From the NCBI RefSeq assembly GCF_003148665.1, contig NZ_QGGQ01000001.1:1-64000 (forward strand): DNA of 64,000 nucleotides, given 5' to 3'. How positions within the stretch are numbered: the first letter of the stretch is position 1; every line of letters starts with the position of its first letter. Positions 52,537 to 64,000 of the stretch are shown here, in pieces. Both the position numbers and the translations under genes were made by a program. The notes under the pieces were generated by a model that did not search any database, had not been told where the DNA came from, and saw only the letters and a list, made by a program, of their open reading frames with translations. The DNA comes from Maribacter polysiphoniae (GTDB lineage Bacteria; Bacteroidota; Bacteroidia; Flavobacteriales; Flavobacteriaceae).

Positions 52537-52633
52537 TTAACATTTAGTTAATCTAGTAACCTTTATATAACCCTAACATATTTAACATTTAACATAGGAC
52601 TAACCCAGCTTTTACATGCCCACAGTTTATTTG
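52537..52633 (+). promoter_or_regulatory. PhoB-type direct repeats (TAAC, 11-bp period) and promoter of the TonB receptor
   Basis: T(A/T)AC cores at 52590, 52601 and 52612 lie exactly 11 bp apart; the -7-like TTTATTTG starts at 52626, 14 bp after the last core. Further upstream there are more pairs at 11 bp (52538/52549, 52557/52568). Direct repeats at this period are the mark of OmpR/PhoB-family response regulators. Confidence 0.6.
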
Positions 52634-52664: not shown

Positions 52665-55535
52665 ATGAGAAAAATTATTTTTAGTCTACTTTTATTGACT
52701 AGCGTCTTTTTAAGCGCTCAAGAAACAGGGAGTATTGCCGGTACACTTACCGACACCGAAATGAACAACGAACCCCTACCTTTTGCCAATGTAGTAATTA
52801 AAGGAACCACGAAAGGAACCACTTCCGATTTTGACGGACTTTACGAAATTGGAAATCTTGAACCGGGCACCTATACAGTGATCTTCAGTTTTCTTGGGTA
52901 TGAAACCGTAGAGATCCCGAATGTAAAGGTTGAAGCAAAGAAAGTTTCCACCATAAATGTACCGATGGCAACTACGGGGGTAGCCTTGGAAGGGGTAACC
53001 GTAACAACAATTGCCCGAAAGGATTCTGAAACGGCGCTTTTGATCGATCAGAAAAAAGCCATTGAGATCAAGGAAAGTATTGGTGCTGTGGAACTCGGTA
53101 AAATCGGGGTTTCCGATGTAGCATCGGCAACCACTAAAATATCGGGCGTATCGAGTAGTGAAGCTACCGGCGATGTATTTGTTCGCGGTCTTGGGGACCG
53201 TTACCTATCCACAACACTAAACGGACTCACGGTGCCTTCGGATGATGTTGAAAAGAAAAACATTGACCTGTCCCTTTTTCCCACCCGAGTAATACGAAAT
53301 GTAAGCATCAGTAAAACGTACGCCGCACAATCCTCAGCCGATCAATCCTCTGGCACCATAAACATAAGTTCCAGGGAACTTGTTGGCTCCTCGGAATTAG
53401 GGGCAAATCTTTCCACAGGAATCAATTCCAATGTGGCCAAAAGTGGTGTATATGACAATTTTAAGATTTCGCCCAATCAAAGTGATGTGACCTTTGGTTT
53501 TTACAACTCGAACAAAACCATACAACAACAAATTACCCAACAAGGTTGGAATACAAGAACACAGGAAAACCCCATGGATTATTCATTTTCCATGATTGCA
53601 GGGAAACGGATAAAAGACAAGCTATCTATCTTTTTTACAGGTTCCCACTCGAGGTCTTATGAATTTCAAAAAGGACTCTTTCGCCAGTACAGGTCCAACT
53701 TCGTTGATGACACCATAACCGATGCCACAACCTATAGCAATAAAATCGTCAACACGGCCTTATTGGACATGACGTTCTTAGCCAATGACAAGAACAAGAT
53801 CAAATCGAGTACGTTCTTTGTGAATAAAATAAGTGAATCTGTATTTGAAGGCGGGCGAAATGGGGAAGCCACGATTTTTGAAGAGACCGCTCCCTCTGAA
53901 GGTCTTTTTCAGTTCGTAAGGGACCAGAACACCAAACAGACACGTTTGTTGGTTACACAGCTTATGGGGTCTCATGGGATTGGCGACAACAACACTTTGA
54001 AATGGGCAGGGGGATATAATATCCTAAATGCGGATGAACCGAACAGGATCAGAAACGAAGTGAACTGGGACCCCAACAATGTTGAACCTGACTTTGATGT
54101 TCAGCTTGGTAGAAATGGTGGTTTTCAACAAAGAAAATCGAGTCAATTTATTGAGGATATCGAATACAACGGCTACATTAAAGATGTTCTGGATATTATC
54201 AAGGATGAGGATAATGCAAAGACTTTCAAGGTCGAACTGGGCGTATCCTACAGAAACAAGAAACGTGACTTCAGTTCGGAATTCGTAGGTGTCGAAGAAA
54301 CCTCCACCAACGCCGTCAATCCGTCTTCAATCGATAACATTGGAAGTATCTTTCAACAATCCAATTTTGATAGCGGCCTGCTCGAACTCAATTTATTGGG
54401 GTCAAACGCCAACGATGAACGCAAAGACATCTATACCGGGGAATTGGAATCAAAAGCGGCATTCGCAGATTTTAACGTTGGTCTGGAGAAATGGAATTTC
54501 AATGCCGGTCTTCGGTTTCAAAAAGATGGGATAAAAGTCAAGTACGATATAGGAAACTTATTCCCAAGGGAAGGGGAAAGCTTTCAAGAATACAACAATC
54601 TGTACCCAAGTCTTAACATTAAATACTCGCTCAACGAATTACACGCCTTAAGGCTTGCCGTAAGCAAAACCTTGACCCTTCCTGAATTCAAGGAGGTCTC
54701 CCCTTTTGAATATGTATCACCAACGAGTCAGGTAATCCGTGGTAACGTAGATCTTAGGGCCTCCAAGAACTTAAACTATGATATTAAGTGGGAATATTTC
54801 CCTTCACCCACCCAATTGATTTCCGCCTCTATTTTTTATAAAGACATTTCAGACCCTATCAACAAAGTAAGGGACAGAGGGTCTGCCGGAGTGTTCTCAT
54901 ACTTCAACTCCGCAGAAAAAGCAGAAGTATTCGGACTTGAGGCCGAAACCAAGGTAGACTTGATCAAACCAACCATCAATGAAGAAGATGGTACCCCTAG
55001 TGGACAAAACTTGAACATGGTGTTTAATGCAACACGTATGTGGCATTCACAGGATTTAAAAGAAATTTACAAGGACGATGGGACATTATTGAGAACCTTT
55101 AGGTACAAGGGTATTGAAAAAACAGACCTACAGGGTGCCTCTGACTGGATTTTCAATACAAGTCTCAATTATAATACAATAGGCAAAAACCCCTTCTCCG
55201 CTTCCTTAAATGCCAACTACGCCTCAGACAAGATTTATGCTTTGGGCGTACCTACGGACCAATCGAATCGAGATATCTTTTACGATGATGCCATTATAGA
55301 AAAAGGATTTGTGGTGCTCAATGCTGTTATCAGCAAAATAATTGCCAAAAAATGGAAAATAACCCTAGTGGGCAAAAACCTCCTCAACCCGGAAATAGAA
55401 CAAACACAGCGTATTTTGAAAAATGTCGCTGAAATAGCCTCGGACCCCACTGCCAATCGAATTGAAGTTGATGAGACCGTAAGTTCCTACACGACCGGTG
55501 TCGGACTAAGCTTAGGTCTCAGTTATCGTTTTTAA
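52665..55535 (+). CDS. TonB-dependent outer-membrane receptor
   Basis: This 956-residue protein has signal peptide MRKIIFSLLLLTSVFLSAQ, then a carboxypeptidase-like domain (residues about 22-105: IAGTLTDTEMNNEPLPFANV, then SDFDGLYEIGNLEPGTYTVI). The TonB plug follows (KIGVSDVASATTKISGVSSS, VFVRGLGDRYLSTTLNG), and then a long beta-barrel ends in the aromatic SYRF. It would import a bound ligand with TonB energy. It lies 48 bp before the repeat lipoprotein gene, in the same operon, and behind Pho-like boxes, so phosphate or an organophosphate is a candidate ligand. Confidence 0.94.
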   Translation: MRKIIFSLLLLTSVFLSAQETGSIAGTLTDTEMNNEPLPFANVVIKGTTKGTTSDFDGLYEIGNLEPGTYTVIFSFLGYETVEIPNVKVEAKKVSTINVPMATTGVALEGVTVTTIARKDSETALLIDQKKAIEIKESIGAVELGKIGVSDVASATTKISGVSSSEATGDVFVRGLGDRYLSTTLNGLTVPSDDVEKKNIDLSLFPTRVIRNVSISKTYAAQSSADQSSGTINISSRELVGSSELGANLSTGINSNVAKSGVYDNFKISPNQSDVTFGFYNSNKTIQQQITQQGWNTRTQENPMDYSFSMIAGKRIKDKLSIFFTGSHSRSYEFQKGLFRQYRSNFVDDTITDATTYSNKIVNTALLDMTFLANDKNKIKSSTFFVNKISESVFEGGRNGEATIFEETAPSEGLFQFVRDQNTKQTRLLVTQLMGSHGIGDNNTLKWAGGYNILNADEPNRIRNEVNWDPNNVEPDFDVQLGRNGGFQQRKSSQFIEDIEYNGYIKDVLDIIKDEDNAKTFKVELGVSYRNKKRDFSSEFVGVEETSTNAVNPSSIDNIGSIFQQSNFDSGLLELNLLGSNANDERKDIYTGELESKAAFADFNVGLEKWNFNAGLRFQKDGIKVKYDIGNLFPREGESFQEYNNLYPSLNIKYSLNELHALRLAVSKTLTLPEFKEVSPFEYVSPTSQVIRGNVDLRASKNLNYDIKWEYFPSPTQLISASIFYKDISDPINKVRDRGSAGVFSYFNSAEKAEVFGLEAETKVDLIKPTINEEDGTPSGQNLNMVFNATRMWHSQDLKEIYKDDGTLLRTFRYKGIEKTDLQGASDWIFNTSLNYNTIGKNPFSASLNANYASDKIYALGVPTDQSNRDIFYDDAIIEKGFVVLNAVISKIIAKKWKITLVGKNLLNPEIEQTQRILKNVAEIASDPTANRIEVDETVSSYTTGVGLSLGLSYRF

Positions 55536-55583: not shown

Positions 55584-58535
55584 ATGAAAACGAAAATTTT
55601 AAGATTAACAATGGGTCTAATGGCCATTACCTCCTTGTTTCTTACAAGTTGTAGTAGCGACGACGGAGGCACCGATCCAGGAGAAGAAGCCACCTGTTCC
55701 GACGGCAAGATGAACGGGGATGAGACCGGCATCGATTGTGGTGGCTCATGCACCGCCTGTGAAGACACAAACCTTACGGGGTCATTAACTGAAGATAGGA
55801 CTTTGGATGCCAGTAAAACATATACCCTTACCACAACCTTTAGTATTGAGTCAGGAGCTACACTTACGATCCCTGCAGGTACTAAAATTATTGCAGACGT
55901 AGAAAGTGGGGATGAGACAAGTACCTATATCGTAGTTCAAAAAGGAGCCAAAATCAATATTCAAGGTACTTCCTCAAATCCGGTCGAGATGACCTCTGAG
56001 AATGAATCTGCCGGTGACTGGGGTGGTTTGGTAATTGCGGGTAATGCAACCACGACCGAAGGTTCCGATGCCACTGCAGAGGTTGGCCAAATAAAATACG
56101 GGGGTAGTACAGACACCGATAATTCTGGTTCCATAAGCTATTTAATCATACGATATGCCGGTGCCCAGATCAATCCCGATTCACAGTACAACGGACTTAC
56201 ACTTTATGCCGTAGGTTCCGGGACAACTATAAATAATGTTGCCTTGATAGACGGTAAGGACGATGGTGTTGAATTCTTCGGCGGTACGGTTTCCGCTTCT
56301 AACTTCTACTTGGAAAACAACGAGGATGATGCCGTTGACTGGACAGAAGGTTGGAGTGGTACTTTGACCAATACCTATGTTGTACATACCGTTGATGGTT
56401 TCTCTACCGCCGTTGAAGCCGATGGTGAAAACGGAAATCCGACCTTAGCCAACTTTACAGCGGTTTCAACCGTAGGTGGTACAGCCTTACAGTTCAAAAA
56501 GACTTCCGGCGCCACTATCACTGGACTTTCTTTAGCTGGGTATGACACAACCGTAGATATGAAAGACGATGGACCTTTGGCCAACGTACAAATAGATGGG
56601 GCCGACGCTAACCCTGAATTAAGCTACATAGCAACCCCTACTGTTGACATTGAAAGATTTGCTTGGGTCAATTCTTCCACAACAGCGGAAACTTCAATTT
56701 TAACTGGCTCTTTAACTAGTGAACTTACCTTAGACGCTGAGATAAAATACTTCTTGGATAGTACTTTTAGTGTAGAGGCTGGCGGTAAATTGATTATTCC
56801 GGCAGGAACTGAAATCGTTGCCGATGTTGAGAATGGTGATGAGACCAGTACATACATCGTTGTACAAAAAGGTGGTCAAATCGACATCCAAGGTACTGAA
56901 TCCAGTCCCGTCATAATGACTTCCGCCAATGAAAACCCTGGCGACTGGGGTGGTTTGGTAATCGCAGGAAAAGCGACAACTACCGAAGGTACAGACGCTA
57001 CCGCCGAGATTGGACAGATTAAATACGGTGGATCTGATGATACCGACAATTCCGGTTCTATCAAATACTTGGTCATCAAATATGCAGGTGCACAGATCAA
57101 TCCTGATTCACAATACAACGGACTTTCACTTTATGCCGTAGGTTCAGGGACAACTATTGACAATGTTGCCTTGATAGACGGTAAGGACGATGGTGTTGAA
57201 TTCTTCGGTGGTACGGTTTCCGCTTCTAACTTCTACTTGGAAAACAACGAGGATGATGCTGTTGACTGGACAGAAGGTTGGAATGGTACTTTGACCAATA
57301 CGTATGTTATACATACCGTTGATGGTTTCTCTACCGCCGTTGAAGCCGACGGTGAAAACGGAAATCCGACCTTAGCCAACTTTACAGCGGTTTCAACCGT
57401 AGGTGGTACAGCCTTACAGTTCAAAAAGACTTCCGGCGCCACTATCACAGGACTCTCTTTAGCTGGGTATGACACAACCGTAGACATGAAAGATAATGGT
57501 CCTTTGGCCAATGTTCAATTAGATGGGGCTGATGCAGATCCAGCTTTACCTTATATCGCAACTCCAACTGTGGATATTGCAGCCTTTGCCTGGGTAAATT
57601 CGGAAACTGAAATCGAAACAAGTGTTTTGTCGGGAAGCCTTTCTACAGATTTAACTTTGGATGCTGACATTACGTATTACTTAGCCGAAACATTAAGTGT
57701 TGAGTCAGGTGCCACATTAACCATTCCAGCAGGAACCTCAATAATCGCCGATGTCGAAAGTGGGGATGAAACCAGTACGTATATCGTTGTTCAAAAAGGT
57801 GCCAAAATCGATATACAAGGCACTGAAGCCAGTCCAGTAGTGATGACTTCCTCCAATGAGGCCCCTGGTGATTGGGGTGGATTGGTAATCGCTGGGAATG
57901 CGACAACCACTGAAGGCACTGATGCAACTGCAGAGGTGGGACAAATTAAATATGGGGGCACGGTAGATACCGATAACTCTGGTTCCATTAGCTATTTAAT
58001 CATACGTTATGCCGGGGCACAGATCAATCCAGACTCTCAATACAACGGCCTTACACTATATGCCGTAGGTTCCGGGACAACTATCGAAAATGTCGCCATG
58101 ATCGATGGCAAGGATGATGGCGTTGAATTTTTCGGTGGAACTGTTTCGGTTTCCAATTTCTACTTCGAGAACAACGATGATGATGCGATAGATTGGACAG
58201 AAGGCTGGAGTGGTACTTTGACCAACGCCTATGTTCTACATACAAATGCCGGTTTCTCAACTGCAGTTGAAGCTGACGGCAGCAACAACAATCCGAAACT
58301 CGTAAACTTAACCGCAGTTTCTACCCAAGATGGTACTGCATTACAGTTTAAAAAGACTTCTGGAGCAACCATAACCAATCTTTATCTTGAAGGTTATGCC
58401 ACTTTGGTTGATATGAAAGATTCCGGTCCTTTGGCCAATGTACAGATTGATGGTGCCGATGCTACCGTCGCTGGCCCTTATAACTCAGGAACGAAAGTTG
58501 ACATTACTCTGTTTGATTGGGCTACTGGAAACTAA
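55584..58535 (+). CDS. Surface lipoprotein of three 309-residue beta-rich repeats
   Basis: This 983-residue protein has lipobox LTSC (C23) and an N-terminal Cys-rich motif with NGDETGIDCGGSCTAC. Then come three near-identical units starting LTGSLTED, LTGSLTSE, LSGSLSTD. Each unit has a strand-rich pattern (SGATLTIPAGTKIIADVESG, WGGLVIAGNATTTEG, GTALQFKKTSGATI) consistent with a right-handed beta-helix. It is in operon with the TonB receptor, so it is probably its surface-exposed partner. I recognise the fold type but not an enzymatic site. Homologues I know of are usually a single unit; the triplication is unusual. Confidence 0.85.
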   Translation: MKTKILRLTMGLMAITSLFLTSCSSDDGGTDPGEEATCSDGKMNGDETGIDCGGSCTACEDTNLTGSLTEDRTLDASKTYTLTTTFSIESGATLTIPAGTKIIADVESGDETSTYIVVQKGAKINIQGTSSNPVEMTSENESAGDWGGLVIAGNATTTEGSDATAEVGQIKYGGSTDTDNSGSISYLIIRYAGAQINPDSQYNGLTLYAVGSGTTINNVALIDGKDDGVEFFGGTVSASNFYLENNEDDAVDWTEGWSGTLTNTYVVHTVDGFSTAVEADGENGNPTLANFTAVSTVGGTALQFKKTSGATITGLSLAGYDTTVDMKDDGPLANVQIDGADANPELSYIATPTVDIERFAWVNSSTTAETSILTGSLTSELTLDAEIKYFLDSTFSVEAGGKLIIPAGTEIVADVENGDETSTYIVVQKGGQIDIQGTESSPVIMTSANENPGDWGGLVIAGKATTTEGTDATAEIGQIKYGGSDDTDNSGSIKYLVIKYAGAQINPDSQYNGLSLYAVGSGTTIDNVALIDGKDDGVEFFGGTVSASNFYLENNEDDAVDWTEGWNGTLTNTYVIHTVDGFSTAVEADGENGNPTLANFTAVSTVGGTALQFKKTSGATITGLSLAGYDTTVDMKDNGPLANVQLDGADADPALPYIATPTVDIAAFAWVNSETEIETSVLSGSLSTDLTLDADITYYLAETLSVESGATLTIPAGTSIIADVESGDETSTYIVVQKGAKIDIQGTEASPVVMTSSNEAPGDWGGLVIAGNATTTEGTDATAEVGQIKYGGTVDTDNSGSISYLIIRYAGAQINPDSQYNGLTLYAVGSGTTIENVAMIDGKDDGVEFFGGTVSVSNFYFENNDDDAIDWTEGWSGTLTNAYVLHTNAGFSTAVEADGSNNNPKLVNLTAVSTQDGTALQFKKTSGATITNLYLEGYATLVDMKDSGPLANVQIDGADATVAGPYNSGTKVDITLFDWATGN
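55773..56699 (+). repeat. Lipoprotein repeat unit 1 (927 bp)
   Basis: The first of three tandem units, exactly 927 bp long. From about 56245 to 56560 it is almost identical in DNA to unit 2 (57172-57487), with only a few silent changes, which suggests recent duplication or gene conversion. Confidence 0.9.
56700..57626 (+). repeat. Lipoprotein repeat unit 2 (927 bp)
   Basis: The second tandem unit, again 927 bp. It is closest to unit 1 in its middle and 3' part and more divergent in its first 150 bp. Confidence 0.9.
57627..58535 (+). repeat. Lipoprotein repeat unit 3 (about 909 bp, ends the gene)
   Basis: The third unit, in register with the others, slightly shorter at its 3' end. Its 3' half differs more from units 1 and 2, although the first part of its sequence (ESGATLTIPAG, GDETSTYIVVQKGAK) resembles unit 1. 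Confidence 0.88.
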
Positions 58536-58656: not shown

Positions 58657-58700
58657 TAACCTTCCCATAACATTCAATTAACCTTAGTCCGTTTTATTTG
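58657..58700 (+). promoter_or_regulatory. PhoB-type boxes and promoter of the small carboxypeptidase-like protein
   Basis: Three perfect TAAC cores at 58657, 58668 and 58679 are spaced exactly 11 bp, and the -7-like TTTATTTG begins at 58693, 14 bp after the last core. This geometry is identical to that before the TonB receptor, including the following GCAG, so the same regulator probably acts on both. Confidence 0.7.
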
Positions 58701-58717: not shown

Positions 58718-59101
58718 ATGAAGAAACTAACTTCTATTCTTGCTCTATTTATTACCCTTGGTGTTTGTGCCCAAGAAAAAGGCGCTATTTCCGGAAAAAT
58801 AATGGACTTGGAAATCGAAAACGAACCCATGCTATTGGCAAATGTGCAAATTAAAGGGGGTTCCAAAGCAACACAGACCAATTTTCATGGGAATTTTGAA
58901 CTGAAAGATATTCCCGTAGGGCAACATACTTTAATCGTCAGCTATGCCGGTTATGAAAAATTAGAGATACCCGTACAGGTCGAAAAAGATAAGATTGCAG
59001 AAGTTAATGGCGGTTTGTCGCAGAAAACATTATTTGGGAGTGATATGGCCATTACTAAAACCATACAAAAAGAATTTACCAGAGGACCAAGTTTAAGGTA
59101 A
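58718..59101 (+). CDS. Stand-alone carboxypeptidase-like (CarboxypepD_reg) secreted protein
   Basis: This 127-residue protein has signal peptide MKKLTSILALFITLGVCAQ and then only the beta-sandwich domain (GAISGKIMDLEIENEPMLLA, NFHGNFELKDIPVGQHTLIV), similar to the N-terminus of the TonB receptor 6 kb upstream. The plug and barrel are absent and the frame closes at a normal stop followed by a terminator. It may be a remnant of a receptor or a free domain that regulates one. The shared promoter architecture argues it is still used. Confidence 0.75.
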   Translation: MKKLTSILALFITLGVCAQEKGAISGKIMDLEIENEPMLLANVQIKGGSKATQTNFHGNFELKDIPVGQHTLIVSYAGYEKLEIPVQVEKDKIAEVNGGLSQKTLFGSDMAITKTIQKEFTRGPSLR

Positions 59102-59172: not shown

Positions 59173-59526
59173 TCAATTCTTTGCTAGTCCTTCTTTTTTA
59201 ACACCGTCGACACTAGCAATCTCGTTATTGCTATATCTTACTTCCTTCATTTGATCACCGACCCAAAATGTCCATTTCCCTACTTTACGCCCATTTAAAT
59301 AGGCGCCTTCAGAAATCTTTTTACCTTCTTCGTTAAAACTTGTCCATTCCCCATGTAACTTTCCATCAAGGTTAAAAGTCCCTACTTGACTTACAATTCC
59401 ATTGTCATGAAAATAAGTAGCTTCTATCAATTCGGTTTCTTCATTTAAACCGACCTTATTTTCTTGTTGGGCATATGCAAATGACGTTGCCAATAGTACG
59501 GTTAGGAGTATTAAAATGTTTTTCAT
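59173..59526 (-). CDS. Secreted YwqK/MORN-like protein
   Basis: This 117-residue protein has signal peptide MKNILILLTVLLATSFAYAQ. The mature part contains MORN-like repeats (YFHDNGIVSQVGTFNLDGKL; EWTSFNEEGKKISEGAYLNG; KVGKWTFWVGDQMKEVRYSN), the toxin-antitoxin YwqK-type pattern. Its role is unknown. It is divergent from the porin gene, with TAAC/TTAC 11-bp repeats in its upstream region (59569-59595). Confidence 0.8.
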   Translation of the reverse strand: MKNILILLTVLLATSFAYAQQENKVGLNEETELIEATYFHDNGIVSQVGTFNLDGKLHGEWTSFNEEGKKISEGAYLNGRKVGKWTFWVGDQMKEVRYSNNEIASVDGVKKEGLAKN

Positions 59527-59757: not shown

Positions 59758-59795
59758 ACGGTATGGGTTCCATACCGCGCAAAACCATTAACGCA

Positions 59796-61001
59796 ATGAA
59801 CTTCAGACATATAACCGTATTGTTTGTTTTCCTAGGGACCATTATTTCCTATTCACAAGAGACAAATGCGCCTAAATTTGGCAAAGGCCTATTTAACCTT
59901 GTTGGAAAAGACAGTACGTGGAGCATGAAAATCGCTGCACGTATGCAGTTTCTCTCAACCAATACCTGGAATAAGGGTGATGACGATAATTGGGTCGATC
60001 CAGAGCAAAATTTTCTGGTGCGTAGGGCTCGACTAAAATTCAATGGGTTTGCCTATACGCCAAAACTTAAGTACAAACTCGAACTGGGACTATCCAACCG
60101 TGATATTTCAGGTGCCTCCACCTATACCGGCAATGCCCCTAGATATATCCTCGATGCCGTCATTATGTGGAATTTTTATGAAAATTTCGAATTATGGGTG
60201 GGTCAGACCAAACTGCCCGGAAACATTGAGCGGGTCATTTCCTCAGGAAACCTGCAACAGGTAGATCGATCTTTGGTCAATAGTAGATTTAATATTGACC
60301 GTGACCAAGGAATTCAATTACGGCATCATTTCTATGTAAAGAACAACTTTTTGATTCGGGAAAAATTCGCCATCTCCCAGGGGGAAGGTAGAAATATCAC
60401 CAGTGGCAATTTGGGGGGCCACCAATATACCACGCGTTTGGAATTATTGCCTTTCGGAACCTTTGAAGGGAATGGGGAATACAGTGGCAGTGACCTACAA
60501 AGGGAAACGAAACCGAAGTTAATGCTTGCCGCGACCTATGACAGTAACCAAAATGCAGTAAAGACAAGAAGCAACCAAGGCTCCTATATGACCAATGATA
60601 CCGGTTTTTACGAAACCAATATCAATACTTTCTTTTTAGATGCCATGTTCAAGTATCAGGGCTTTTCATTAATGGGCGAATATGTACATCGGGATGCCAA
60701 GGATCCCATTGCTAAAAATTCGGATGGCACATTAACGGGTGATGAAGTACAAGTGGGCCATGGACTTAATCTACAAACAGGATATCTTTTCCGTGGCAAT
60801 TGGGAAGTGTCTGGCAGGTACACCGAAATCAACTTGGACGAGGCCATTACAGGAAGAAATCCTGAAACCCAATATACTCTTGGTTTTTCTAAGTATATTG
60901 TTGGTCATAAACTGAAGGTTCAGACCGACTTAAGTTATTTGTCAGTAGATGGTGGATCGGACAGGATAATGTATCGCTTGCAATTAGACGTTCATTTTTA
61001 A
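59796..61001 (+). CDS. OprO/OprP-type phosphate-selective porin
   Basis: This 401-residue protein has signal peptide MNFRHITVLFVFLGTIISYS. I start at ATG 59796 because it gives a clean signal peptide; an ATG at 59763 would add 11 residues in front. The core has FLVRRARLKFNGFAYTPKLK, FELWVGQTKLPGNIERVISS and GQIRL-type strands (NVDRDQGIQLRHHF-like), the porin_O_P pattern, and it ends in a terminal Phe (LDVHF). It would pass phosphate across the outer membrane. It precedes the PiT gene by 209 bp. Confidence 0.9.
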   Translation: MNFRHITVLFVFLGTIISYSQETNAPKFGKGLFNLVGKDSTWSMKIAARMQFLSTNTWNKGDDDNWVDPEQNFLVRRARLKFNGFAYTPKLKYKLELGLSNRDISGASTYTGNAPRYILDAVIMWNFYENFELWVGQTKLPGNIERVISSGNLQQVDRSLVNSRFNIDRDQGIQLRHHFYVKNNFLIREKFAISQGEGRNITSGNLGGHQYTTRLELLPFGTFEGNGEYSGSDLQRETKPKLMLAATYDSNQNAVKTRSNQGSYMTNDTGFYETNINTFFLDAMFKYQGFSLMGEYVHRDAKDPIAKNSDGTLTGDEVQVGHGLNLQTGYLFRGNWEVSGRYTEINLDEAITGRNPETQYTLGFSKYIVGHKLKVQTDLSYLSVDGGSDRIMYRLQLDVHF

Positions 61002-61129: not shown

Positions 61130-61156
61130 TTAACATATTCATAACATTTTGGTAAC
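61130..61156 (+). promoter_or_regulatory. PhoB-type boxes before the PiT transporter
   Basis: Perfect TAAC cores at 61131, 61142 and 61153 lie exactly 11 bp apart. About 13 bp after the last core is TAGGGTTA (61166-61173), a weak -7 match. The PiT ATG follows at 61211. Confidence 0.7.
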
Positions 61157-61210: not shown

Positions 61211-63478
61211 ATGGATAACATTTACTTTTTAATGATCATAGCACTGGCCATTTTAGCCATAGCGGATCTCGTTGTAGGGGTTAGTAATGACGCCGTTAAT
61301 TTCCTGAATTCCGCACTTGGTTCCAAGGCCATCTCCTTTAAAACCATAATGATCGTGGCCAGTTTGGGTATCGCATGTGGTGCTGTATTCTCCAGTGGAC
61401 TAATGGAAGTTGCTAGAAAAGGTATTTTTGTGCCAGGGGAATTTATGTTCAGTGAAATCATGATCATATTCATGGCCGTTATGATCACCGATATTCTCTT
61501 GCTCGACTTTTTCAACACCTTGGGCATGCCTACCTCCACGACCGTATCCATTGTTTTTGAATTATTGGGTGCAGCGGTTGCCATGGCCCTTATCAAAATA
61601 GGCATGGATGGCGGTTCATTTTCAGAGGTCGTTAATTATATCAATACAACAAAAGCCACCGAAATTATACTGGGTATTCTATTGTCCGTGGTTGTCGCCT
61701 TCTCGGTCGGGGCCTTGGTCCAATATGTATCCCGTCTTTTGCTATCCTTCAATTTTGAAAAAAAAGCGAATTGGGTAGGATCTGTATTTGGAGGATTCGC
61801 CTTGGCAGCGATTACCTATTTTATCTTTATCAAAGGATTGAAAGGAACGGATTATTATGCTGAAATCAAACCCATGATCGAAGGCAAGACTGCTATTATC
61901 ATTGCCTTATGTTTTATAATTTGGTCCCTCTTATCCTATGTTGTTATTGCCGTTTTCAAAAAGAACATATACAAACTCATTATTGCGGTAGGGACTTTTG
62001 CCTTGGCATTGGCCTTTGCCGGTAATGACCTTGTTAATTTTATTGGGGTACCTATTGCGGCCTATCAATCCTATGAGGCTTGGGTCATCTCAGGAGTACC
62101 AGCCAACGAATTCGCCATGGGCGTTTTAGGCACAAAAGTACCTACCCCTACCACTTTTCTTCTTGGTGCCGGTTTGATAATGGTCTTGACCTTATGGTTT
62201 TCCAGCAAGGCTAAAAAAGTAGTGAAAACCTCCATCGACCTTTCTAGTCAGGCAGAGACAAAAGAACGTTTTAATCCGAATTTCTTGTCCAGAACCTTGG
62301 TCAGAACTACGATATTGGCTGCAAAATATACGGCAACCGTTATTCCGAATTCCCTTCAAACCCGTATAGACCAACAATTTACGAAACCCGTTATCAAACT
62401 CCCGAAAGGCAAGGAACATGAACTTCCTGCGTTCGACTTGGTGCGGGCAGCTGTCAACCTCATGGTAGCCAGTGTACTTATTTCGATCGCGACATCAATG
62501 AAACTACCCTTATCAACCACCTACGTGACCTTCATGGTCGCCATGGGTTCTTCCTTGGCGGACAGGGCATGGGGTAGCGAAAGTGCCGTTTACAGGGTCG
62601 CTGGAGTACTTAATGTCATTGGAGGATGGTTCTTTACCGCCCTGTGTGCTTTTATTGCTGCAGGGACTGTTGCCTATTTGATCCATTTGGGTGGTAGCGC
62701 CATGATTGCGGTCTTATTATTATTGGCCATTTTACTATTGACACGGAACTACATAAAACACACCAAAAAATCAAGGGAAGTTAAAGCTGAGGATAGTCTG
62801 AGTAAGGCTGAGAGCCAATCTATCCATGGGGTTATAGAAGAAAGTGCGGATAACATTTCAAAAGCACTTAGGCGGGTAAGTAAAATAAACCAAATTACCA
62901 TTAATGGATTGATCAATCAAGATCTCGATGCGTTAAAAAAGGCAAAAAAGACCGTAGTAAAACTTGAAAATGAAATTGAGGAACTTCAGAATGATATTTT
63001 CTATTTCATCAAAGATCTGGACGACTCCTATTTAGGGGCCAGTAAATTCTATATCGATGTTATCGGAAGCATTCAGGACGTTGCACAATCATCTAGCCTG
63101 ATAGCAAAAGTCAGCCATAAACATGTTAACAACAACCATAAGGCCCTAAAGAAAAAACAAGCTGAGGAATTGTTGTACATCAACGAGAAATTGGTGCACT
63201 TATGTTCTGAAATAGGCAAAATATTCGATGCGCGTTCCTTTCATGATATAAAACCCAATATTCTCCAAGAAAAGCAGGATTTGTTGGCCTACGTTAAGGA
63301 ATCCATCCAAAAACAGGTGGAACGTACAAGATTTGAGGAATCGAGTCCTAAGAACACGACCCTCTACTTTAATATTTTATTGGAAACCAAAGACCTTATC
63401 AAAGCGAACATGGATATTCTAAATCTTTATTTTGAAGAACATAGAAATAGCACAATAGGTCAGGAACCGATAGATTGA
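61211..63478 (+). CDS. PiT-family inorganic phosphate transporter with PhoU-like tail
   Basis: This 755-residue protein has about 10 membrane helices in two PHO4 signature halves: GVSNDAVNFLNSALGSKAIS near the N-terminus and AGNDLVNFIGVPIAAYQSYE in the second half. After about residue 530 the chain is a soluble helical domain (VIEESADNISKALRRVSKIN; AKKTVVKLENEIEELQNDIF) like PhoU. It takes up phosphate across the inner membrane, possibly regulated by its own tail. It follows the PhoB-like boxes and is convergent with another PhoU-domain gene. Confidence 0.95.
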   Translation: MDNIYFLMIIALAILAIADLVVGVSNDAVNFLNSALGSKAISFKTIMIVASLGIACGAVFSSGLMEVARKGIFVPGEFMFSEIMIIFMAVMITDILLLDFFNTLGMPTSTTVSIVFELLGAAVAMALIKIGMDGGSFSEVVNYINTTKATEIILGILLSVVVAFSVGALVQYVSRLLLSFNFEKKANWVGSVFGGFALAAITYFIFIKGLKGTDYYAEIKPMIEGKTAIIIALCFIIWSLLSYVVIAVFKKNIYKLIIAVGTFALALAFAGNDLVNFIGVPIAAYQSYEAWVISGVPANEFAMGVLGTKVPTPTTFLLGAGLIMVLTLWFSSKAKKVVKTSIDLSSQAETKERFNPNFLSRTLVRTTILAAKYTATVIPNSLQTRIDQQFTKPVIKLPKGKEHELPAFDLVRAAVNLMVASVLISIATSMKLPLSTTYVTFMVAMGSSLADRAWGSESAVYRVAGVLNVIGGWFFTALCAFIAAGTVAYLIHLGGSAMIAVLLLLAILLLTRNYIKHTKKSREVKAEDSLSKAESQSIHGVIEESADNISKALRRVSKINQITINGLINQDLDALKKAKKTVVKLENEIEELQNDIFYFIKDLDDSYLGASKFYIDVIGSIQDVAQSSSLIAKVSHKHVNNNHKALKKKQAEELLYINEKLVHLCSEIGKIFDARSFHDIKPNILQEKQDLLAYVKESIQKQVERTRFEESSPKNTTLYFNILLETKDLIKANMDILNLYFEEHRNSTIGQEPID

Positions 63479-63507: not shown

Positions 63508-64000
63508 TTATTTTCGAACTTCCAACAAAGTGTCGGTTTCCCCATATAACAACTCCGCCACTTCGATCAATTTTTTGACAATATCGTTAACATGATCGTT
63601 GTCATTTACCAATGAAGAAGCCATATCAACGGTTATCAAATCGTTCCGAATCAGTTTGTTTATCGATTTTGTGCTTTGGTGCTTGCCTTTTCTAGCTTCC
63701 TCCTTAAGCACCAATAATTTTGAATACTGGGCTTCCCGGTCCACTTCTTTTCTGAACAAATAGATAACGCGTAAAACTTTTACGATCTTCTTCCTGAACT
63801 TATCATACTCTTTACTAATATATTTATTGTCGGAATTTAGATAGTAGGACACATTCCTACCCAGTTCACGAACATCCTCGATAATCTCTACCATCTTGCG
63901 ACTTGCGATCCTTATCTCGGATAACCGCGTATTCTGCACCTTGGTCATCTTTAAATCACTTTGTGCCGTAGTAGCATATCTTATGATTTCGCCATAGATG
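63508..64000 (-). CDS. PhoU-like C-terminal domain, probably of a Na/Pi cotransporter (partial)
   Basis: The minus-strand frame is open from the window edge: EIIRYATTAQSDLKMTKVQN continues into RLSEIRIASRKMVEIIEDVR and then helices such as RKIVKVLRVIYLFRKEVDRE to the stop at 63508. An internal ATG at 63948 is not the true start, since the reading frame runs on through the edge. The helical pattern matches the PhoU-like tail of NptA-type Na/Pi cotransporters in Bacteroidota. The transporter part is outside the window, so that identity is an inference from the tail and its neighbour. Confidence 0.65.
   Translation of the reverse strand, partial: IYGEIIRYATTAQSDLKMTKVQNTRLSEIRIASRKMVEIIEDVRELGRNVSYYLNSDNKYISKEYDKFRKKIVKVLRVIYLFRKEVDREAQYSKLLVLKEEARKGKHQSTKSINKLIRNDLITVDMASSLVNDNDHVNDIVKKLIEVAELLYGETDTLLEVRK

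Follow-up and report, generated by a model that had tools for sequence, protein, structure and literature searches.

Tandem units in an ElpS/FII-type lipoprotein gene beside a TonB receptor and phosphate genes of Maribacter polysiphoniae

The first 64,000 nucleotides of contig NZ_QGGQ01000001.1 of Maribacter polysiphoniae, here called the window, carry the gene of a predicted surface lipoprotein that is built of three similar tandem units and lies directly downstream of a TonB-dependent receptor gene (Table 1). This locus raises the question of what such a protein does for its receptor and how its units arose. The lipoprotein belongs to the known family of phosphate-starvation lipoproteins that includes ElpS of Caulobacter and FI, FII, and FIII of Flavobacterium, and its context speaks strongly for a role in phosphate starvation. 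With moderate confidence, we read it as a probably PhoB-regulated, surface-exposed protein that captures a phosphorus-containing ligand for the adjoining receptor. New here are the one-, two-, and three-unit forms, the near-constant receptor upstream, the phosphate context, and a TAAC repeat. No published description of the tandem forms was met in searches that were not aimed at unit number, and the words "repeat" and "tandem" are absent from the main text of PMC8115612.

The lipoprotein, its receptor partner, and the phosphate genes around them

Within residues 1–23, the window protein has a lipobox ending in FLTSC, which is followed by SSDDGG and a Cys-rich linker before the units. This start resembles the surface export signal of lipoproteins, given as SDDFE for F. 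johnsoniae in PMC5080379, and it supports the original prediction, made from the DNA alone, that the gene encodes a lipoprotein. The lipobox pattern occurred in 71 of 81 family genes, and 66 of these 71 had at least two acidic residues at +2 to +6. In the self-comparison of the protein, the top offset of 309 residues gave 498 identities and the offset of 618 gave 246, followed by 103 for the next best. Units 1 and 2 were identical at 261 of 309 residues, units 1 and 3 at 239 of 303, and units 2 and 3 at 231 of 303, the last two counts taking in the stop position. The three tandem repeats proposed earlier were thus confirmed, but their uniform length was not: units 1 and 2 measure 927 bp, and unit 3 only 906 bp. 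Tandem Repeats Finder, whose longest covered period is 500, reported no repeat in the window. A third unit created by assembly error, a concern raised with the prediction, is unlikely because the assemblies of M. aquimaris (94% identity) and M. polysaccharolyticus (87%) carry the same three units. A search of the genome itself at E ≤ 0.001 returned one family member.

ElpS (CC0170) of Caulobacter crescentus is described as a surface lipoprotein induced by phosphate starvation, whose gene adjoins the receptor gene CC0171 and type II secretion system (T2SS) genes (PMC2996285). The PhoB-regulated functions of Caulobacter are reported to include the T2SS and TonB receptors (PMC11208175). In F. johnsoniae, Fjoh_0546 (FII) adjoins the receptor Fjoh_0545 and PhoBR; PMC8115612 reports that the receptor, FII, FI, and FIII are all strongly induced by low phosphate, that FI is the most abundant exoprotein of phosphate-starved cells, and that the three lipoproteins are related to one another and to the Caulobacter lipoprotein (31–36% identity, 50–54% coverage). 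The published accounts place the ElpS, FI, and FII genes next to TonB-receptor genes. Likened by description only, ElpS and the window protein, itself a predicted surface lipoprotein with a probable role in phosphate starvation, are each encoded beside a TonB receptor, whereas the window gene comes after its receptor gene and not before it, has three units, and has no T2SS among its annotated neighbors. The order lipoprotein–receptor–T2SS, as described for elpS, is shared by plasmid relatives in Sphingomonas and Indioceanicola, and these relatives match the unit profile at E 1e-48 and 4e-111, respectively. FII, again compared by its description only, is an outer-membrane lipoprotein (IPR011050) encoded after a receptor of the same Pfam families; its cluster, PUSIV, has PhoBR and OprP, whereas the window pair stands with OprP, PiT, and Na/Pi carriers and lacks PhoBR.

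The gene neighborhoods of relatives were counted in 80 named loci, the best 80 of 130 relatives found, a set that leans to multi-unit genes owing to the three-unit query. In 79 of them, the receptor frame ended at most 249 bp before the lipoprotein frame, and in the remaining locus (L047) the contig end cuts at the lipoprotein gene. A stricter receptor-upstream rule gave only 66 loci because stop-to-stop frames can overlap. The lipoprotein–receptor pair was also present in all five plasmid loci examined (L113–L117, from 21 plasmid records), and the same pair occurred in alpha- and gammaproteobacteria, adjoining T2SS, PhoBR, or ExbBD-TonB genes. In Alteromonas (L116), the pair has as neighbors phoB, phoR, the gene of a phosphate-binding protein, and an ExbB-ExbB-ExbD-TonB set; for Pseudoalteromonas (L115), the stretch shown has the ExbB-ExbB-ExbD-TonB set only.

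Among the 80 named loci, 71 had PhoBR and/or PiT, porin O/P, a Na/Pi carrier, PstA, or PhoU, with PhoR plus PhoB in 43, PiT in 29, and porin O/P in 19. The gene order PhoR–PhoB–receptor–lipoprotein is that of F. johnsoniae Fjoh_0543–0546, and the label PhoBR rests on best matches together with this Fjoh gene order. In the M. polysiphoniae genome, the PstS and PstA models had no match, compared with matches in 13 and 14 of 14 control genomes, and a PhoB-family search at E ≤ 1e-50 returned three response regulators, none above the cut-off and none near the locus. In the two-unit relative M. arenosus (L040), Pst genes lie inside the same cluster. Beyond the window, a second PiT-like gene follows the Na/Pi cotransporter gene; it was called by its likeness to the first PiT (76% and 74% in relatives). 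The receptor partnership, judged by gene order, and the phosphorus link of the original prediction are supported, the latter by these phosphate genes and by the repeats described below; what that prediction had missed is that the family was already described.

TAAC repeats upstream of receptor and phosphate transport genes

An exact TAAC-N7-TAAC repeat, with a period of 11, precedes the receptor gene in 66 of 79 loci, compared with 52 of 653 upstream regions of other open reading frames (ORFs) in the same loci and 2% of mononucleotide shuffles; the motif was found on the same loci as were counted, and the receptor count is not independent. A recount from the first Met over the 80 named loci gave 65 of 78. 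Other exact periods from 7 to 15 occurred upstream of the receptor in 0–11 of 79 loci. Phosphate transport genes accounted for 37 of the 52 control-region matches (PiT 24/32, OprP 8/19, PstS 3/4, and Na/Pi carrier 2/6), and the PiT, OprP, and PstS counts are nearer to independent. The repeat was found upstream of the family lipoprotein gene itself in 8 of 84 cases, of unlabeled genes in 3 of 339, and of none of 12 PstA/PstB/PhoU genes, 26 glycosyltransferase genes, or 49 DXS, DUF3078, HD, or DUF6503 genes (the last under our own label LolA).

The 11-bp spacing recalls the PHO box of Escherichia coli, and we therefore regard the TAAC repeats as a putative flavobacterial PHO box. In a limited search, no published description of this repeat as a PHO box of Bacteroidota was met; "pho box" is absent from the main text of PMC8115612 and is mentioned in PMC4796936, which deals with marine bacteria. 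A triple half-site, TAAC-N7-TAAC-N7-TAAC, occurs in exact form just twice over the 5.13 Mb of the genome, each time within this cluster.

Unit number across the family and conversion between units 1 and 2

Among the 80 named loci, 72 genes had two units and 8 had three. The latter were those of M. aquimaris, M. polysaccharolyticus, a Maribacter metagenome-assembled genome (MAG), Aureicoccus marinus, Muricauda CAU 1633, two Winogradskyella, and a Psychroflexus MAG. Relatives with one unit, whose frames run to about 400 residues, are common in the family and order. Matches at E ≤ 1e-20 were found in 139 of 149 Flavobacteriaceae genomes of at least 90% completeness, at least 4 of which have frames of about 1000 residues (G000, which is the M. 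polysiphoniae genome itself, G087, G129, and G155), and a class-level search gave matches in 79 of 119 genomes. Of the five plasmid relatives, those of Alteromonas macleodii and Pseudoalteromonas shioyasakiensis had three units, that of Indioceanicola two, and those of Sphingomonas and Aureibacter one. In four Aquimarina loci (L106, L107, L108, and L073), a one-unit gene paired with a TonB receptor of its own stands directly before a receptor with a two-unit gene, forming two adjoining pairs.

A tree of 207 units was built by a quick method with Shimodaira–Hasegawa-like approximate likelihood ratio test support only, six identical loci and one weak single hit being omitted. Unit 3 of the window gene grouped with the second units of two-unit relatives, and units 1 and 2 were sisters. 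The unit-2 clade (window, M. aquimaris, and M. polysaccharolyticus) had as its sister a unit-1 clade in which M. arenosus and the genome G003, both with two-unit genes, are also placed. Read plainly, this topology suggests that the third unit predates that split and was lost in M. arenosus and G003, although conversion could blur this. The other three-unit genes fell elsewhere, namely Aureicoccus, the Maribacter MAG with Muricauda, and a Winogradskyella–Psychroflexus group. Judged from these sequences, unit number varies between species from one to three, with separate three-unit lineages, Gammaproteobacteria included.

The near-identical DNA stretches noted at the outset in units 1 and 2 (56245–56560 and 57172–57487) match at 307 of 316 positions. 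They lie within a 429-bp segment, 56154–56582 in unit 1, which is the longest over which the two units reach 95% identity or more and which has 21 mismatches; the longest exact run is 98 bp. At unit positions 0–405, only 39 of 100 codons for the same amino acid were identical between units 1 and 2, compared with 115 of 127 at positions 405–810. Over the latter part, the orthologous comparisons gave 100 of 128 for unit 1 against unit 1 of M. aquimaris and 79 of 125 for unit 2 against unit 2 of M. aquimaris. Within this tract, each of the two window units is thus nearer to the other than to its orthologue in M. aquimaris, the pattern of a recent conversion. Unit 1 probably overwrote unit 2, because unit 2 of the window is closer there to unit 1 of M. 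aquimaris (96/128) than to its own counterpart.

A permutation test over 452 variable sites in 13 units from five genomes (400 permutations) agreed with this: the observed run of 49 and segment score of 118.7 for window units 1 and 2, the latter the top among the pairs listed, were reached in none of 400. The test is not specific alone. By score, 12 of 78 pairs stood at 0/400, 7 of them between genomes, some being orthologous third units; uneven constraint along the unit therefore also clusters identity. By run length, four pairs stood at 0/400, and the one between genomes joined window unit 2 with M. aquimaris unit 1, as conversion predicts. For this reason, the codon counts of paralogues against orthologues are the main evidence for conversion. 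On same-amino-acid codons only, the segment score of window units 1 and 2 (90.6) was the top of 106 within-gene pairs, the next being 51.8, and the clustering had p = 1/1001 (0.001). Family-wide, clustered synonymous identity at p < 0.01 was seen in 10 of 106 within-gene unit pairs compared with 6 of 150 between-genome controls. In the unit tree, the first and the second units lay for the most part in different places, their labels needing 16 and 11 changes compared with shuffled means of 66.8 and 63.4. The homogenization suggested earlier therefore holds for this gene, where conversion is clear, and does not extend strongly to the family, where it appears only occasional, if it occurs at all.

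The features of the locus are collected in Table 1. Among the smaller genes, the 127-residue protein has a signal-like start and resembles the N-terminal extension of the receptor without the barrel; small proteins akin to it lie downstream in 7 of the 80 loci, in Maribacter and Eudoraea. Between its gene and the porin gene, the reverse strand at 59173–59526 encodes a small protein that resembles MORN_2 weakly (E 1e-4, under the cut-off) and relatives of which occur in 8 of the 80 loci.

Table 1. Features of the lipoprotein locus, in window coordinates (aa, amino acids; HMM, hidden Markov model).
Feature	Position	Strand	Basis
ElpS/FII-type predicted surface lipoprotein, 983 aa, three tandem units modeled as beta-helices	55584–58535	+	Intact ORF, unit HMM, AlphaFold
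Signal peptide and lipobox up to Cys23, then SSDD (surface-export-like) and Cys-rich linker	55584–55652	+	Sequence
Unit 1, 309 aa (aa 64–372), 927 bp	55773–56699	+	Profile HMM, self-comparison
Unit 2, 309 aa (aa 373–681), 927 bp, sister of unit 1	56700–57626	+	Profile HMM, unit tree
Unit 3, 302 aa (aa 682–983), 906 bp, groups with second units of two-unit relatives	57627–58532	+	Profile HMM, tree
Tract common to units 1 and 2, recent conversion, probable donor unit 1	56154–56582	+	Codon counts, permutation, identity scan
Converted tract in unit 2, probable recipient	57081–57509	+	Codon counts, permutation, identity scan
TonB-dependent receptor (CarbopepD_reg, Plug, OMP_b-brl_3), partner gene	52665–55535	+	Pfam; directly upstream of lipoprotein
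PHO-box-like repeat TAACATTTAGTTAAT, one mismatch	52538–52552	+	Motif scan
PHO-box-like repeat TAACCTTTATATAAC	52557–52571	+	Motif scan
PHO-box-like repeat TAACATAGGACTAAC	52590–52604	+	Motif scan
Triple half-site TAAC-N7-TAAC-N7-TAAC, upstream of 127-aa gene	58657–58682	+	Exact genome match
Triple half-site upstream of PiT	61131–61156	+	Second exact genome match
127-aa protein, stand-alone CarboxypepD_reg-like domain	58718–59101	+	Pfam
Porin O/P family (phosphate-selective porin)	59763–61001	+	PF07396
PiT-type phosphate transporter (PHO4 family)	61211–63478	+	PF01384
Na/Pi cotransporter family protein, continues to contig position 65397	63508–64000	-	Model match

Predicted fold, proposed function, and alternatives

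Structure prediction, which had been suggested as a check, was run on the whole protein and on a single unit. The AlphaFold model of the full 983 residues (39-row alignment) had a predicted local distance difference test score (pLDDT) of 87.6 and a predicted template modeling score (pTM) of 0.63, and a Foldseek search with it gave only low TM-scores, which is why a unit was modeled alone. The unit model (65-row alignment) had a pLDDT of 94.1 and a pTM of 0.93 and was almost all beta, each unit being modeled as a right-handed parallel beta-helix. Short helices between the units suggest beads rather than a single continuous solenoid. The best Foldseek match of the unit was a PL3 pectate lyase (E 9e-4), and VIA gave Z-scores of 17.8–20.6 among the 50 entries listed, the top match with a root-mean-square deviation of 2.8 over 231 residues; the entries listed include tailspikes, NosD, AlgE4, AlgG, PL6, and GH28. 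The fold is common to many functions and therefore does not decide that of the lipoprotein.

Searches of the PDB by sequence, with the whole protein and with a 65-unit profile, found no relative, the only match being a cytochrome at E 1.5. In Pfam, the whole window protein matched only DUF7233, just above the cut-off and with no stretch passing alone, and its single units had weak or no matches; over 65 units scanned singly, Beta_helix was found in 10 and Pectate_lyase in 7. In unit-2 numbering, D163, D164, E167, D185, D186, D189, E215, and K242 did not vary among the tandem units (185 of 185). The residues of this acidic ladder were kept in 20–22 of 22 relatives with one unit, in which the position of K242 was mostly Arg or Lys (16/22).

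For the favored reading, ligand capture for the receptor, the mechanism might run as follows. Under low phosphate, PhoB would turn on the receptor and lipoprotein genes via the putative PHO box, and the beta-helix units, with their invariant acidic ladder and K242, would capture phosphate, an organophosphate, or a phosphate-bearing polymer. From its inferred position at the surface, the lipoprotein would pass the ligand to the receptor, in the manner of BtuG or SusD with other ligands, and porin O/P, PiT, and the Na/Pi carriers would complete uptake. Two or three units per anchor may give more binding sites and a longer reach per receptor. The gene evolves as whole units are gained or lost and, in M. 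polysiphoniae, as part of one unit is copied onto its neighbor. In the pairs BtuG-BtuB and SusD-SusC, a surface lipoprotein takes the ligand first for a TonB receptor, and the folds differ from the beta-helix; the likeness lies in a surface lipoprotein encoded with a TonB receptor and probably in the way of working, homology not being indicated. No SusD domain of Pfam matched the whole protein or the 65 units.

Several observations weigh against this reading. Nine of the 80 loci lack the phosphate genes in the stretch searched, some of these stretches being short, and the representatives of PhoB and PhoR score under the curated cut-offs of their models. The TAAC repeat is rare before PhoB (2/43) and PhoR (2/39). 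When one mismatch is allowed, it is found upstream of the receptor in 77 of 79 loci compared with 159 of 653 control regions, and other periods then reach 18–55 of 79, with period 8 at 55. Counted over whole genomes, the triple half-site shows no excess over a reversed pattern used as control (2 versus 3 in this genome and 35 versus 51 in 31 genomes). As the reversed control exceeds the count, only the location of these sites is informative; 12 of the 35 lie within 10 kb of a family gene. The beta-helix fold is also that of many carbohydrate-active enzymes, and the published effect of ElpS overproduction on phosphatase, described below, suggests a helper role. The last two points correspond to rival functions.

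The main rival to ligand capture is a carbohydrate-cleaving site: the units may be, or may recently have been, GH28- or pectate-lyase-like enzymes that open phosphate-bearing polysaccharides at the cell surface in phosphate starvation. The right-handed parallel beta-helix common to PL3, PL6, GH28, and AlgE/AlgG speaks for it, as does the spacing of acidic residues. GH28 enzymes have the catalytic motifs N-x-D, D-D, a histidine, and R-I-K. The alignment of the unit profile with 14 GH28 proteins puts D164, E167, D185, and D186 on their four invariant aspartates, with D164, D185, and D186 on the catalytic ones, but this is one hhalign comparison with a probability of only 7% (E 0.005). In it, the GH28 histidine aligns with V207 and R-I-K with A238-L239-Q240, so that H205 and K242 lie two residues off these positions. 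H205 occurs in 158 of the 185 tandem units but in only 8 of 22 single-unit relatives; PF00295 (GH28) matched none of the 65 units scanned singly; and the recurrent neighbors are phosphate genes. Binding or hydrolysis of plant glycans has been proposed from homology modeling (PMC8115612). We judge the enzymatic reading unlikely, although the GH28-like acidic spacing may reflect an enzymatic origin or activity.

Quite improbable, in our view, is that the protein acts, in line with the proposal for ElpS, as a surface scaffold or activator of a secreted phosphatase and not as a ligand-binding partner of the receptor. PMC2996285 reports that ElpS overproduction raised extracellular alkaline phosphatase activity, ElpS itself being without activity, but also that elpS deletion left phosphatase activity unchanged. 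A PAP2-superfamily gene lies near a two-unit family gene in 5 of the 80 loci (L062, L064, L091, L094, and L104); beyond it, no phosphatase was recognized among the annotated gene clusters common to at least four loci, not all clusters being annotated, and the near-constant receptor partner would be left unexplained. A further alternative concerns unit number only and is compatible with the other readings. If one unit is enough, the repeats would carry no functional weight and their number would drift by unequal crossing-over, as the coexistence of one-, two-, and three-unit genes in one family and the unit loss in two Maribacter implied by the plain reading of the tree would allow. The acidic ladder is nevertheless kept in every tandem unit, and three-unit genes occur in separate lineages and in two phyla; such drift seems to us rather unlikely.

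Taken with its receptor, the lipoprotein may have a wider meaning. It is possible, although we put this forward tentatively, that ElpS/FII lipoproteins and their TonB receptors form an outer-membrane phosphorus-acquisition machine that is widespread in Bacteroidota and in alpha- and gammaproteobacteria, with a capture arm tuned by gain, loss, and partial homogenizing of units. In genomes without Pst, such as that of this Maribacter, it might be the main high-affinity phosphorus route, controlled through a PHO box that is distinct to flavobacteria and consists of TAAC repeats spaced at 11 bp. The window offers a compact system for this question: a single gene whose three units are alike, a constant receptor partner, and no PstS or PstA found in the genome. 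With the proposed PHO box, the phosphate regulon of flavobacteria could be searched for. Should the lipoprotein capture phosphate or organophosphates for its TonB receptor, this would account for the way in which scarce phosphorus crosses the outer membrane of marine Bacteroidota, and unit number would form a natural dosage series.

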